A DNA stretch of 64,000 bases from Bacillota bacterium. GTDB taxonomy: Bacteria > Bacillota_A > Clostridia > Lachnospirales > Lachnospiraceae. This document shows positions 9,568 to 47,530 of this stretch, piece after piece. A program made the translations under genes and the position numbers. The notes below the pieces were generated by a model. That model saw only the letters and a program-made list of their open reading frames with translations, made no database searches and was not told the origin of the DNA. Where the stretch lies: the NCBI GenBank assembly GCA_023443625.1, contig JAEZTQ010000101.1, positions 1-64,000 of the forward strand, written 5' to 3'. Position 1 is the first letter of the stretch. Every line of letters starts with the position of its first letter.

Positions 9568-9785
9568 TGTGAAAATAAAAAGCAATTTTCACACCTAGAA
9601 GTTTGTGCCTGCGTGATCCTCGGCACAAACTAACTCAAGGGGAAGGCATGTACTGTTAGTGTGAATTATTGAAAAACATAATTCACACTTAGAAGTTTGT
9701 GCCTGCATAATCCTCGGCACAAACTAACTCAAAGGGAAGGAATGTACTGATAGTGTGAAAAATAAAATTTTTCGCACGCAAATTT
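9567..9785 (+). repeat. Tandem hairpin leader repeat before the dehydrogenase
   Basis: Units of 92-94 bases start at 9567, 9659 and 9753 (the last diverges). Each opens with a hairpin between GTGTGAA-type and TTCACAC-type arms (GTGTGAAAA...TTTTCACAC in the first). The first two continue with a second hairpin GTTTGTGCC...GGCACAAAC, then AAGGGGAAGGC or AAAGGGAAGGA directly before ATGTAC and an in-frame stop within two codons. The third unit swaps its second hairpin for TGCCTGCGGCCCAAAG...GCAGGC and leads into the real gene start. The array looks like a duplicated 5' leader. Confidence 0.85.
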
Positions 9786-28205: not shown

Positions 28206-28300
28206 AAAATCTATAAAAAGCCTGCACGATTATAGTACAGCTGAATAAACTGAATTAAGAATATTCATATAGAAAATGTTGTGTTTTCATGGAGGGAACT

Positions 28301-30097
28301 ATGTATTTTAACAGAAATCAAAATGCCGGGCTGCCTTATAATGACATAAATTGGTCTGATATTAATGGTCAACCTTTTGGCGTTGCTTCCAACTTTAACG
28401 CAATTATATTTGGAAATGCTAATAATATTGTAGATACAAAAGGGGCCATGGCCGTAGGCGGTAATTTCACAAGCTCTAGAGGACTCACTCTTGGCTATGG
28501 TAATGATTTGAATCTTACTGGAACAGGTTATAGTCCTGATTTGGTACGTTTCTTGGTTGGAGGGAATGTAGCTATGCAAGGCCCGCTGGTTGTTATTGGT
28601 CATGTATTGGCGGGTGGAGAATTCAAAGCTGCAAGAGGCAGTACTTACATGATTGGTAAAGACGGATCCCCGGAACAGGCACGGGTATTGATGGATTTAT
28701 ACAGTGCACCTGGCGGAAGTAGGTACTGGAGCTTGGGTGACAGAGGAACCCATTATGCTGTGTCCAGTTATGATGTTCCCAGATTCATTCCTGCAGCAAG
28801 AGTTAATGCCAATGTTAGAGGATTTTTTTCGGATGCAAAGGAGAGCATTACTAATTTCTTTGAATGTATCACGGGGCTTCAACCGAATGGCACTGTAACA
28901 GAACGTTATCATGAATGGATACTGCGAGGAAGTGATCCTCGCCAAAATGTATTTCTAATAGATGCAAGGCCAAATGGAATATTGAACAAAGAAATTCGAT
29001 TTGAAATACCACAGGGAAGCCTTGCGATTGTCATATTCAGAACCGGTAATAATGCACATATTCAATACGGCCTCTGGGGTGATAAGAGCCATGCAAATAA
29101 TACTTTATATGTTTTTGAAGATGCTAGTAATATTCATATGGAAGTTCCCGCGGCAATTTGGGGAAGTATACTTGCACCACAGGTCACATTCAATGCACAT
29201 CCTACGGGAGGTACTGTTAACGGTAATGCCGCATTAGGAGCCTTAAATGTAAATGCAACCAGTGGCTTTGAGTTTCATCTCTTTCCTTTTGTTGGAGGAG
29301 TAGTATGTAGAGCAAAAGAGCAGGCACCAGCTCCCAGACCAAGACCGACCCCTATTCCAAGACCAATACCGAGACCCAGACCAACACCAATACCAAGGGC
29401 AACACCGGTTCCAACTCCTGTGCAGCAGCCAGAACAAGTTGTAATACCTACACCTGTAGAATGTCCAGAGTGTCCGCAGCCAGTGCCCTGTCCACAGCCA
29501 GCACCCTGTCCACTGCCTGCACCCTGTCCTAGCTGTCCAGAGCAACAACCTTGTCCAGAAGCAAAGCCCTGTCCACAGCCAGCACCCTGTCCTAGCTGTC
29601 CAGAAGCAAAGCCCTGTCCACAGCCAGCGCCTTGTCCTAGCTGTCCAGAACAACAACCTTGCCCAGAAGCAAAGCCTTGTCCTAGCTGTCCGCAACCAGC
29701 TCCCTGCCCGCCTTGTCCGCCAGCACAACCCAGCCTCATTAAAATTCAACCAGTACCAATTCCTATTCCAATGCCATGTCCGGAACAGGAAAAATGTGAA
29801 GAATGCTTAGTTACACCGGGTGTAATCTACGGATGCATCTGGGGCTGCTCTTGCTGCCATGACCATGAATGGGAAATCAAGCTTTACAGAAACTGTGGTG
29901 ATAGAAGAACATTACTTTATTGCATTAGAATATGTAACTGTGGCTGTTTTAATTTTGAAGTACCCTATGATGATTTTTATCTCCTGGTGATCTGCCCAGT
30001 TCATAAATCTAATAGACGCAGCAGATATAGAGAAGAATGCAAACCCAAGGTTACACTCAAAAATATCGGCGTAGCGAATTTAATGATAGAAAAATAA
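28301..30097 (+). CDS. Choice-of-anchor-A-like protein with Pro-rich and Cys-Pro repeat region
   Basis: A 598-residue protein in three parts. Residues 1-340 resemble the choice-of-anchor A domain (FNAIIFGNANNIVDTKGAMAVGG, LVGGNVAMQGPLVVIGHVLAGG, WGSILAPQVTFN, NGNAALGALNV). Residues about 345-385 are PRP/TPIPRP repeats, and 386-480 are Cys-Pro repeats built from CPQPAPCPSCPE units. The last 115 residues are a Cys-rich domain (GCIWGCSCCHDHEWEIKLYR, CIRICNCGCFNFEVP). There is no signal peptide and no LPXTG-like anchor. GGAGGG precedes ATG 28301. The lack of export signal, the cysteines and the spore-forming host suggest a spore-coat-like or cytosolically assembled structure, but this is inference. 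Confidence 0.8.
   Translation: MYFNRNQNAGLPYNDINWSDINGQPFGVASNFNAIIFGNANNIVDTKGAMAVGGNFTSSRGLTLGYGNDLNLTGTGYSPDLVRFLVGGNVAMQGPLVVIGHVLAGGEFKAARGSTYMIGKDGSPEQARVLMDLYSAPGGSRYWSLGDRGTHYAVSSYDVPRFIPAARVNANVRGFFSDAKESITNFFECITGLQPNGTVTERYHEWILRGSDPRQNVFLIDARPNGILNKEIRFEIPQGSLAIVIFRTGNNAHIQYGLWGDKSHANNTLYVFEDASNIHMEVPAAIWGSILAPQVTFNAHPTGGTVNGNAALGALNVNATSGFEFHLFPFVGGVVCRAKEQAPAPRPRPTPIPRPIPRPRPTPIPRATPVPTPVQQPEQVVIPTPVECPECPQPVPCPQPAPCPLPAPCPSCPEQQPCPEAKPCPQPAPCPSCPEAKPCPQPAPCPSCPEQQPCPEAKPCPSCPQPAPCPPCPPAQPSLIKIQPVPIPIPMPCPEQEKCEECLVTPGVIYGCIWGCSCCHDHEWEIKLYRNCGDRRTLLYCIRICNCGCFNFEVPYDDFYLLVICPVHKSNRRSRYREECKPKVTLKNIGVANLMIEK
29460..29730 (+). repeat. Cys-Pro coding repeats
   Basis: In-frame imperfect repeats of about 24-60 bases encode CPQPAPCPSCPE(A/Q) and CPEAKPCP units. 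CCCTGTCC, GCAAAGCC and CCTAGCTGTCCAGA recur nearly unchanged at DNA level, so the array has expanded recently or is kept homogenised. The complementary strand is open over long stretches because of this composition; those frames are not genes. Confidence 0.85.
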
Positions 30098-34347: not shown

Positions 34348-34467
34348 TCATGGACTTGATTACAGAAGTGTCAGTAGCAGGCACTTTCTTGTATAAATTA
34401 ATGATTTTATGATAAATCCTAGAGTAAAAGCTTTAAAAAATAATATATGGTATTTACAGATTCAATA

Positions 34468-34476
34468 TGATATAAT
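34468..34476 (+). promoter_or_regulatory. Extended -10 promoter for tig
   Basis: TGATATAAT is a perfect extended -10 element (TGnTATAAT). No good -35 box lies at the standard distance. Transcription from here would give a leader of about 330 bases that includes the SD-hairpin array. Confidence 0.6.
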
Positions 34477-34642
34477 ATACTAATGTCAAACTGTCTGCAA
34501 AATCAGACATAATGTACTTCTGCAAATCCTGGGTATAGTATTACACAAAGTAGTAAAGAGTAAAGTACATCACAGTAAGGAGGAATACACTTTCTTCTTA
34601 TTAAAAATAAAAAGAGAAAAAGAAATCTCATAATGATAAACC

Positions 34643-34803
34643 AGGAGGAAAAATCCCTCCGAAGAAAGACAAAGGAGGAGGGAAAAACCTCCTAAGAAAG
34701 ATAAACCAGGAGGAAAAATCCTCCTAAAAGACAAAACAGGGAGGAAAAATTCCTCCTATAAAGACAAAACAGGGAGGAAAATTCCTCCCAAAAAAACAGG
34801 AGG
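34643..34803 (+). repeat. Array of five Shine-Dalgarno/anti-Shine-Dalgarno hairpins upstream of tig
   Basis: Five tandem units of 31-33 bases each hold an AGGAGG-type sequence, a short A-rich loop and its complement CCTCC(T): GGAGG 34644-34648 with CCTCC 34656-34660; AGGAGG 34676-34681 with CCTCCT 34688-34693; AGGAGGA 34708-34714 with TCCTCCT 34719-34725; GGAGGAA 34740-34746 with TTCCTCC 34750-34756; GGGAGGA 34772-34778 with TCCTCCC 34783-34789. The linkers are purine-rich with GACAAA repeated. A sixth AGGAGG (34798-34803) has no partner and is the real ribosome-binding site, 12 bases before ATG. An extra unpaired AGGAGG lies at 34578-34583. Confidence 0.93.
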
Positions 34804-34815
34804 AAATTAAAAAAA

Positions 34816-39432: not shown

Positions 39433-40372
39433 AATGACCTCCTTTGAATGCGAATAACCCCTGATAACTGTCTAGCTCTTTCATCCTGCTGTGAATTCGG
39501 TTTAAGACCTTTTTTTTATCGGCACTCCAGAGTGGAGCCAGAAGTAGTTTTTTTGGGCCATCTCCAGTGATACGATGGATTATCATATGTGGAGGAAGAA
39601 CCTCCAGGCAGGCTATGAGGACATCAATATAATCTTCCATGGATAAGGCCTCGTCTAGCAGTCCCTCTTGATATAACTTTCCAAGATCTGTATCTTTTAA
39701 TATGTGTAGAAGTTGAAGCTTTATGCCTTGTACTGGAAGTCTGGATATATATTCCATGGTCCTTAACATATCATGTTTTGTCTCTCCTGGCAAGCCCAGA
39801 ATGGTATGAACAATAATGGTGATTCCTAGGGAGTGGAGTTTATGAACTTGTTCTTCAAAGGTAGATAAGGAATATCCACGGCGTATAAAGGATGATGTCT
39901 CTTCATGGATCGTCTGCAGTCCTAGTTCAATCCAAACTGGTTTGATACTGTTAAGTTCTTTTAATAAGTCTAGGACGTCATCACCTAGACAGTCAGGTCT
40001 TGTTGCTATAGATAGAATTACAATATCAGGATGCTTGATGGCTTCCATAAATAAATTCCTAAGATAGGATATAGGAGCGTGGGTGTTGGTATATGCTTGA
40101 AAATAAGCAATATATTTTAATTCCCCCGATTTTTTTGTTTTTGGTACAATTAACTTTTTTGCATTCTCTATCTGATGGGTAATGGAATTAGAAAAAGGTG
40201 CTGCAAAATCTCCAGATCCCCCCTTACTGCAGAAGATACAACCACGGGTATCAATGGTTCCATCACGATTAGGGCAACTCATACCACCATTTAAGGATAA
40301 TTTATATATTTTGTGGCCATAGGTTTTCTTTAGTTCATAATCTAGAGAATGATACCGTTTCTCATCCCACAT
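39422..40372 (-). CDS. Radical SAM protein, YhcC/TIGR01212-like
   Basis: A 316-residue radical S-adenosylmethionine protein. The [4Fe-4S] cysteines lie in CPNRDGTIDTRGCIFC near residues 33-48, followed by GGSGDFA. Further conserved parts are WIELGLQTIHEETSSFIRRG and HTILGLPGET. Its C-terminus is like that of the Elp3-related YhcC group. The substrate is unknown. It is downstream of the malic enzyme gene (six-base gap) and overlaps the DUF4364 gene. Confidence 0.9.
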   Translation of the reverse strand: MWDEKRYHSLDYELKKTYGHKIYKLSLNGGMSCPNRDGTIDTRGCIFCSKGGSGDFAAPFSNSITHQIENAKKLIVPKTKKSGELKYIAYFQAYTNTHAPISYLRNLFMEAIKHPDIVILSIATRPDCLGDDVLDLLKELNSIKPVWIELGLQTIHEETSSFIRRGYSLSTFEEQVHKLHSLGITIIVHTILGLPGETKHDMLRTMEYISRLPVQGIKLQLLHILKDTDLGKLYQEGLLDEALSMEDYIDVLIACLEVLPPHMIIHRITGDGPKKLLLAPLWSADKKKVLNRIHSRMKELDSYQGLFAFKGGHYAI

Positions 40373-46328: not shown

Positions 46329-47402
46329 ATGTTTGATAAACTAGAAGATATCCTAAAGCGTTTTGAGGAAATTGAAGAAGAAATGATGAATCCGGATATC
46401 ATGAATGACCAGAATAGATATAGAAGTCTTAGAAAGGAGCACTCGGATCTTTCAGATATTGTTGAAAAGTATAAAGAATATAAGGACACTCAGAACAGTA
46501 TAGAAGATAGTCTTGCAATGCTTGATGAAGAAAGCGACGAAGATATCCGAGAACTGGCAAAGGAAGAATTAAACGAGTGTAAGCAGAAGATTGTCCAAAT
46601 TGAAGAAGAGCTTAAAATTCTTCTTCTACCTAAGGATCCTAATGATGAGAAGAATGTTATCGTTGAAATCCGTGGTGGTGCAGGCGGTGATGAGGCAGCT
46701 CTTTTTGCAGCACAGTTATATCGTATGTATGTGATGTATGCAGAGCGTTACCGTTGGAAAATAGATATGATGAACTTAAATGAAAATGGAATAGGTGGAT
46801 TTAAGGAAGTTGTATTTATGGTTATCGGTAAAGGAGCATACTCAAGATTGAAATATGAAAGCGGGGTCCACCGTGTACAGAGAGTTCCCGTAACTGAATC
46901 TGGCGGTAGAATTCATACCTCTACTGCAACGGTAGCAATTATGCCTGAAGCAGAAGAAGTAGATGTTGAGCTGGATTTAAATGATTGTAAGTTCGACGTA
47001 TTCCGTTCCTCAGGGAATGGCGGACAGTGTGTTAATACCACAGACTCGGCGGTAAGACTTACTCATATTCCAACAGGCATTGTAATATCTTGTCAGGATG
47101 AAAAATCACAATTAAAGAATAAAGATAAGGCTATTCGTGTTTTACGTTCCAAACTTTATGAATTAGAGTTGGAGAAAGCACAAAGTGCGGAGGCTGAAGC
47201 AAGAAAAAGCCAGGTTGGTACAGGCGACCGTTCCGAAAAGATTAGAACCTATAACTTCCCCCAGGGGCGTGTTACAGATCATCGTATCAAATTGACTGTT
47301 CACCAAATAGATGATGTAATGAATGGTGATTTGGAAGAAATCCTTGACAGCCTCATCGCAGCCGACCAGGCAGCAAAACTAGCAAATATGAATCAAGATT
47401 AA
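46329..47402 (+). CDS. prfA: Peptide chain release factor 1
   Basis: A 357-residue release factor reading UAA and UAG. The anticodon-like PVT motif (RVPVTE) near residue 188 identifies RF1, and GGQ is at residues 231-233 (NGGQCVN). GGAGG precedes the ATG. The final ~13 codons and stop lie inside a 57-58-base unit that is repeated twice more immediately downstream; the annotated stop is in the first unit, and the protein length is normal. Confidence 0.97.
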
Positions 47403-47530
47403 ATAGCCTGGTCGGCTTGCGACCAAGGCAGCAAAACTAGCAAATATGAATCAAGACTAAATAGCCTGGTCGGCTTGCGACCAAGGCAGCAAAGCTGGCA
47501 AATATGAATCAAGATTAAATAGCCTGGTAC
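47364..47530 (+). repeat. Tandem triplication of the prfA 3' end
   Basis: Units start at 47364, 47421 and 47479 (57 and 58 bases apart; the third is partial). Each reads GACCA(A)GGCAGCAAA, GCAAATATGAATCAAGA, TTAAATAGCC or CTAAATAGCC. At unit junctions CCTGGTCG-GCTTG-CGACCAAGG forms a strong hairpin. The first unit encodes the C-terminus of release factor 1; the extra copies carry one inserted base and do not extend it. Confidence 0.92.

Follow-up and report, generated by a model that had tools for sequence, protein, structure and literature searches.

Organization of the trigger factor leader

In the window, by which we mean the whole 64,000-nucleotide stretch of DNA analysed, the gene encoding trigger factor (tig) is preceded by an array of five hairpins, each composed of a GGAGG and a CCTCC arm and spaced 31–33 nt apart, located ahead of the tig ribosome-binding site (RBS). 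The GGAGG cores, which resemble a Shine-Dalgarno sequence (SD), are found at 34644, 34677, 34709, 34740 and 34773, that is, in steps of 33, 32, 31 and 33 nt, and each is followed by a CCTCC (antiSD). The features of this leader are collected in Table 1.

Table 1. Features of the tig leader in the window
Feature	Position	Strand	Basis or remark
Probable tig promoter, TTTACA-17 nt-TATACT	34453..34481	+	Consensus scan 10/12, kept in 8 aligned relatives; consensus match only
AAGGAGG at RBS position of array-less relatives	34577..34583	+	Sequence and alignment
Unit 1, less perfect hairpin of an SD-like 5' arm and an antiSD 3' arm around an A-rich loop	34644..34660	+	
Unit 2, AGGAGG / CCTCCT hairpin	34676..34693	+	
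Unit 3, AGGAGGA / TCCTCCT hairpin	34708..34725	+	
Unit 4, GGGAGGAA / TTCCTCCT hairpin	34739..34757	+	
Unit 5, GGGAGGA / TCCTCCC hairpin; antiSD able to pair alternatively with the RBS (7 bp)	34772..34789	+	
tig RBS, AGGAGG	34798..34803	+	12 nt before ATG; RBS in orthologues too
tig, trigger factor, 428 aa	34816..36102	+	Open reading frame; 79–85% identity to the nearest 13 of the best 80 loci

The pattern GGAGGN{2,9}CCTCC has seven matches in the 64 kb, whereas 100 shuffled versions averaged 0.10 and never had more than 1; six of the seven fall in the array, where one hairpin is counted in two registers, and the seventh lies within an open reading frame (ORF) at 39591. The leader is predicted to fold with -72.2 kcal/mol, compared with -41.8 ± 4.5 kcal/mol in 200 shuffles (z = -6.8), and TRF reports a period of 32 with 4.7 copies and 82% matches. 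Sequence, shuffles and fold thus confirm a real array, far above chance, of five SD/antiSD hairpin units of 31–33 bases, as claimed in a preliminary description of this DNA. The same description took the sixth AGGAGG for the real RBS, which stands, and considered it to be without a partner, which strictly does not, given that the last CCTCC can pair with it. Among the 39 start sites examined in the window, tig is the only one with an RBS-complementary arm.

Positions 34488–34575 of the window and the tig leaders L001–L012 share a recurrent upstream stem (ATGTACTT ... AAGTACAT), and a TGTCTG ... CAGACA hairpin is also present in the tig leader of the window; these stem and hairpin features are partly conserved in relatives, whether the array is present or absent. 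Searched against Rfam 15 at the gathering score, the window returned seven tRNAs only, and ten array loci returned no match. The seven tRNA genes lie at 342–1472, with a 117-nt tandem repeat carrying other hairpins between them (970–1211). Further tandem repeats occur at 9588–9759 and 47363–47528, with periods of 94 and 58, respectively, and an ORF of 602 aa with Pro/Cys-rich repeats spans 28289–30097.

Comparison with the tig leaders of relatives

Of the 544 trigger factor stretches that were confirmed, the best 80 served for comparison, the leaders L001–L032 being inspected by eye and L033–L080 by script. The nearest 13 loci (identities in Table 1) include Mobilitalea sibirica, Herbinix MAGs and others, and most of them have the promoter and the upstream stem in common. 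In the alignment, the RBS of five relatives (L002, L003, L005, L007 and L012) sits where the window has its extra AAGGAGG, and the arrays of four others (L004, L006, L010 and L001) lie between that point and the start codon, with differing unit counts and partly differing arms; no tig array was seen in the other 76 of the best 80 loci. Unit number therefore varies among relatives, as had been anticipated in the preliminary description, from 0 to at least 7 before tig and, by sequence reading, from 0 to about 5 before gyrB.

In a tree of trigger factors, for which 430 of 651 columns were kept (651 aa being the length of the tig reading frame of genome G011), the window falls within a 14-row group with support of 100/99, and its top identity, 85%, is to genome G006. 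The leader L011, which belongs to G011, is labelled as an Anaerolineaceae MAG; its tig is of the Lachnospiraceae type, is 83% identical to the query and groups with this genus, and the assembly is probably mislabelled or mixed.

Distribution of the module across genomes

The unit is present in other genomes, as the earlier account had also expected: the module pattern was found in 24 of the 34 genomes of the Herbinix/Mobilitalea-group genus of Lachnospiraceae, with 1 to 112 matches where present. Among the 17 genomes behind the tig loci described above, 15 contain the hairpin-then-SD pattern, which occurs 74 times in G006. Outside the genus it becomes scarce, as judged from samples of genomes at the level of family, order and phylum. 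In the family, a tighter pattern matched 76 of 299 genomes, with 36 matches in G006 and at most 5 in every other; in the order, a specific pattern matched G006 and one of 391 other sampled genomes, and in the phylum G006 and one of 248.

We inspected six family matches outside the genus. Three of them (L225–L227, other Lachnospiraceae) have a single SD1-antiSD-RBS module ahead of an XRE-like regulator; the antiSD fits the RBS extension (GGAGGCGT) in L225 and L227 and does not fit in L226. The other three (L222–L224, also other Lachnospiraceae) have a recurrent leader in which CCCTCC and GGAGGG alternate before a frame starting with MMITY, MYVTY or MVTYE, which may resemble small holin-like toxins. 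A viral origin of the module was rejected: the exact hairpin-plus-SD was found in four viral contigs (L218–L221), with one intergenic match each and no array.

At individual genes, sequence reading places the module before gyrB in 8 of the 17 genomes and before ilvC in 5 of the 17; G010 has an additional, decayed hairpin at ilvC. The presence of the gyrB module is clustered on the tree, requiring two changes, a value as low as which was reached in 2 of 500 shuffles.

Position, orientation and target genes

Once 60 further regions had been added, 83 of the 96 clusters in L081–L170 end 18–43 nt before a start codon, the last SD being the RBS; some sites in this set are counted twice through overlapping loci, and 13 of the 96 have no RBS plus start by the rule used. 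A typical module reads GGAGGA-GAAA-TCCTCC, an A-rich spacer, GGAGGATT and the start codon. Because the hairpin-then-SD search pattern itself ends in an SD, the position test was redone with the hairpin alone. The 16-mer hairpin GGAGGAGAAATCCTCC has 75 matches in 15 of the 34 genomes of the genus, from which 30 loci were taken, corresponding to 22 distinct sites, several of them also in the earlier sets. All 22 sites have an RBS and a start within 13–85 nt on the sense side, with a GGAGG within 45 nt in 21; an antisense start within 260 nt occurs in 3.

For the discovery analyses, duplicates were merged and 72 leaders kept, 70 of which have a readable last unit and 69 a spacer of at most 40 nt; L081, L082, L083, L096, L097 and L110, from three genomes outside the genus, were excluded. 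A held-out set of 35 loci was drawn from part of the matches listed, in eight genomes that had played no part in forming the hypothesis. It was not collapsed to one row per orthologue group and contains three rows with a 336-aa gene, perhaps ilvC. In the held-out genomes, an RBS and a start codon follow 34 of the 36 clusters.

By gene name, the targets include gyrB, ilvC, recA, gatB, smpB, an flhA-like gene and others. The 70 leaders correspond to 50 target groups, 40 of which were scanned against Pfam; 37 were assigned to a family and 3 were not. The families comprise gyrase B, ketol-acid reductoisomerase, ParA-type ATPase, RecA, GatB, SmpB, class II tRNA synthetase, FHIPEP, FliL, pyruvate formate lyase-like, isocitrate/isopropylmalate dehydrogenase and acyl carrier protein, in addition to transporters, a histidine kinase and others, and no pathway was shared among these 40 groups. 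Control specific to trigger factor, and with it the special link to a ribosome-bound chaperone drawn in the preliminary description, was consequently rejected, since the module precedes many unrelated genes.

The antiSD arm matches the RBS of its own gene

A feature overlooked in the first description is the match between the antiSD arm and the RBS of its own gene. Complementarity runs past the common 5-bp core: gene by gene, the bases preceding CCTCC complement those following the RBS core, with antiSD/RBS extension pairs such as AAT-ATT, AAG-CTT, ATT-AAT, AAA-TTT and ATG-CAT. Taking a single gene from each orthologue group (n = 51), we obtained a mean extension of 2.55 bases, compared with 1.07 ± 0.14 when antiSDs were shuffled among genes, and none of 10,000 permutations reached the observed value. 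After removal of the commonest extension class the difference persists (2.31 versus 0.73 ± 0.22 permuted; n = 26), as it does over all 70 discovery rows (2.47 versus 1.16), and the decoy's own extension, that of the upstream SD arm, is 1.0. In the held-out set the extension is 1.85 versus 1.13 ± 0.15 permuted (0 of 10,000; n = 33). An extension of zero was found in 7 of 70 discovery rows and in 9 of 33 held-out rows. The extensions of RBS and antiSD at gyrB varied in concert from species to species (ATT/AAT in G002, TTT/AAA in G010 and AAT/ATT in G006), with the exception of G001, where they do not fit. In the array L265 (G651), the decoy arm of the repeated units is shortened (AGGAGAAATCCTCC) and the RBS is AGGAGAAT, so that, judging from the bases, unit and RBS look as if they had co-changed.

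Since the antiSD fits its own RBS, one antiSD can pair either with the upstream decoy SD, which would leave the RBS open, or with the RBS, which would close it. Another possibility is that a trans-acting protein or a small RNA recognises the hairpins and binds to them. The recurrence of the exact 16-mer (75 matches in 15 of 34 genomes) would suit such a factor; loops and extensions differ between genes, and we consider this explanation very unlikely.

A different account of the match is a mutational by-product, in which template switching at the RBS generates an inverted copy, slippage multiplies it, and the resulting arrays, largely functionless, are tolerated; the antiSD would then match the RBS by descent from it. 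The match could thus be a relic of inverted duplication, which would count against a regulatory role. Consistent with this account, tandem copies are near-identical, spacers included, the targets are functionally mixed, and match numbers vary widely between close genomes, from 0 to 112. Distance from the RBS also makes no difference to how well a unit matches it (2.27 at unit -1 and 2.27 at unit -2, with a tie in 26 of 33 arrays). Telling selection from birth by the distance between unit and RBS was therefore given up, and the adjacent unit gives no sign of special selection as far as these matches indicate. What the account explains poorly is the fixed orientation and position (22 of 22 sites), the presence of the gyrB module in 8 of 17 leaders with its clustering on the tree, and the properties of loops and arms described below, namely the sense-only loop bias with its GNRA loops and a decoy arm that is conserved as the antiSD arm drifts. 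We treat birth by inverted duplication and slippage as a serious rival, and we find it unlikely.

Constraint on arms and loops

The loops are A-rich on the sense strand. In the discovery set, 18 of 70 are GNRA loops and the antisense equivalent is absent (0); in the held-out set the corresponding values are 6 of 33 and 0. Together with the clustering of gyrB on the tree, this sense-only bias would speak for function, short of proof. The loops also bear on whether the arrays are antisense intrinsic terminators. The minus strand of the scanned region has seven terminator-like sites, every one of which overlaps the array, where shuffles average 1.1; this idea leaves both the antiSD-RBS match and the sense-side GNRA loops unaccounted for, and several single-unit leaders have no A-run before the hairpin, the would-be U-tract. 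We regard it as extremely improbable.

Changes in the arms were counted in units with one arm intact. In the antiSD arm, single changes exceed chance (32 versus 4.2 in the discovery set and 15 versus 2.9 in the held-out set), whereas in the decoy GGAGG arm they do not (6 versus 7.1 and 4 versus 4.4, respectively). On these counts, the decoy arm retains its SD sequence and the antiSD arm drifts; a sense-strand mutation bias at C could add to this asymmetry. Among the discovery changes of the antiSD, 19 of 32 are C>T, which retains a G-U pair in the sense RNA (1.2 by chance), and 8 are C>A, whereas the held-out set has 7 C>A changes, which break the pair, and 6 C>T. The tolerance of G-U pairs was dropped as proof of RNA pairing, its discovery signal having found no repeat in the held-out set. 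Compensatory change between the arms, which the preliminary description had foreseen, had a similar outcome. In the discovery set, 15 of 31 double changes fall on one pair, 13 of them Watson-Crick, but the held-out set has only 2 of 12 on one pair and none Watson-Crick; the signal was not replicated there, and for this reason we do not use it as proof of structure.

The retention of the decoy as an SD suggests that docking of the 30S subunit may be part of the mechanism, and it fits the idea of 30S binding put forward in the preliminary description, with the decoys as candidate binding sites. Taken further, the array may be primarily a 30S docking array, in which the upstream SDs are candidate standby or recruitment sites, the hairpins merely gate them, and control of the RBS by the antiSD is secondary. 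The contrast between a decoy arm without excess changes and an antiSD arm with excess is what would be expected if the SD itself were kept, and the decoy of the last unit is predicted to be open more than the RBS (mean 0.51 versus 0.28; 102 leaders). Nevertheless, docking leaves unexplained why the antiSD fits its own RBS beyond the core and why SD and antiSD match almost universally, and a mutation bias at C on the sense strand could produce the arm asymmetry too. It is a serious rival to the reading developed below, and on balance we judge it rather unlikely.

Predicted folding of the modules

In the predictions, the last unit prefers the closed fold by a median of 1.4 kcal/mol, and 55% of 69 leaders have the two states within 2 kcal/mol. 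The predicted mean openness of the RBS is 0.26, falling to 0.00 when the decoy is masked and rising to 0.73 when the antiSD is masked; the held-out set gave 0.27, 0.06 and 0.78, respectively. On paper, therefore, the antiSD would close the RBS and the decoy would relieve the closure. The tig leader of the window behaves differently: the hairpin-only fold is predicted to be better by 4.0 kcal/mol than the fold in which the last CCTCC pairs with the RBS, which counts against a toggle at this gene, and its RBS has a predicted openness of 0.90 with the last unit, 0.68 with five units and 0.76 in the 240-nt leader.

The preliminary description had also proposed a thermosensor, and an antiSD that holds the RBS is indeed the usual principle of an RNA thermometer. 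In FourU and other RNA thermometers, the SD is held in a stem by a complementary stretch (PMC10586365); FourU is there a U-run motif in a single hairpin, in contrast to the modules described here, whose predicted response to temperature is shallow. Median RBS openness in silico rises from 0.14 at 20 C to just 0.32 at 65 C over 69 leaders, and on this prediction we consider a thermometer highly improbable.

In the 22 arrays of at least three units, added units have no uniform effect on predicted openness. In six of them, openness swings by at least 0.15 per added unit, alternating with parity (for example, 0.02, 0.98 and 0.01 in L142, and 0.46, 0.22, 0.52 and 0.19 in L092). These predictions bear on a further reading of the arrays, in which n+1 SDs are contested by n antiSDs, so that roughly one SD would be free at a time and would move like a shift register between the RBS and the upstream docking sites; since palindromic neighbours can pair with one another too, the parity of the repeat number could set the state of the RBS. 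In that case, repeat slippage would serve as a phase-variation switch that works via RNA folding. The reading is weakened because 16 of the 22 arrays have no parity swing and the summed SD openness is not constant at one, spanning 0.02 to 1.00 across the arrays, and we consider it improbable.

Comparison with known systems

In the leaders described here, an upstream antiSD is complementary to the RBS, gene by gene and beyond the core, and on this ground they may be counted among SD-sequestering leaders. In erm-type translational attenuators, an SD1-antiSD-SD2 alternation controls SD2, and a leader peptide behind SD1 is needed. The alternation is the same in our modules; unlike those attenuators, only 11 of 265 internal GGAGG are followed by a start codon at 4–13 nt, and attenuation by a leader peptide was rejected accordingly.

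The STAB-SD that Agaisse and Lereclus reportedly described in 1996 is an additional SD in the 5' UTR, lone and unpaired, said to act on mRNA stability. Our leaders likewise have extra SDs in the 5' UTR; they differ in that these SDs are paired with antiSDs and adjoin the RBS. Stabilisation in a related sense, with hairpins, bound 30S subunits or both shielding the 5' region from nucleases, would agree with a stable leader that has several hairpins and SDs upstream of the RBS. However, many leaders carry one unit immediately before the RBS instead of at the 5' end, and the antiSD-RBS match is left without a reason, so that we see mRNA stabilisation as quite improbable.

A further likeness concerns the aapA3 type I toxin mRNA of H. 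pylori, in which an upstream antiSD (aSD1) pairs with the SD and mutually exclusive, metastable hairpins formed during transcription set the RBS open or closed (PMC6733600). An upstream antiSD that pairs with the SD and mutually exclusive hairpins are predicted here as well. Unlike aapA3, which is one toxin gene with an antisense antitoxin, lacks a tandem decoy SD and an array, and is not genome-wide, our modules precede many housekeeping genes among the targets scanned; with regard to small toxins, 37 of the 40 scanned target proteins belong to other Pfam families and 3 to none. On the tisB mRNA, ribosome standby relies on a docking region that is single-stranded and lies upstream of a sequestered RBS (PMC7708055). 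As described there, it is about 100 nt upstream and is not presented as SD repeats, whereas the candidate docking sites here are SD copies tens of nt upstream. In Beggiatoaceae, short TAACTGA direct repeats stand in tandem just upstream of many start codons of mixed function (PMC4679880). As described there, these direct heptamers are not SD-like and have no match to the RBS, in contrast to the inverted SD/antiSD repeats of our leaders.

The sequestration of an SD by an antiSD is thus known from individual genes; its genome-wide, tandem form before unrelated genes in one genus is unfamiliar, and no description of tandem SD/antiSD arrays turned up in the open-access literature searched.

A proposed SD-antiSD-SD toggle

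The explanation we favour, tentatively and with a little less than even confidence, is a genus-specific, cis-acting SD-antiSD-SD toggle of translation initiation that has been multiplied in tandem. It starts from what we observe: the architecture of the module, its placement and orientation, its near-restriction to one genus, the gene-by-gene match of antiSD and RBS, and the predicted energies of two states. The effect on translation, its kinetics and whatever may set the balance between the states we infer.

In this toggle, the module consists of a decoy SD as the 5' arm, a short A-rich loop, the antiSD as the 3' arm, a spacer of mostly 7–12 nt, the real SD and the start codon. The antiSD would have two mutually exclusive partners, the upstream decoy SD, with the RBS free, or the RBS itself, which would then be closed, so that the decoy would act as an anti-antiSD. 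As the decoy hairpin is transcribed first, a new mRNA would start open; an RBS without a bound 30S subunit could later be captured by the antiSD, which would tune translation according to use. Tandem duplication would multiply both antiSDs and decoys and alter the strength of the toggle. The toggle is weakened, and 30S docking is raised, because the held-out set lacks the preference for G-U pairs and has a conserved decoy SD.

If the toggle works as proposed, the genus would hold a natural library of graded translation toggles, in which it could be tested whether ordinary mRNAs sense ribosome availability directly, and the arrays would show how such control spreads through a genome by the birth of repeats at the RBS. 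Should the arrays prove functionless, they would still be a clear case of repeats born at the RBS that have invaded leaders.
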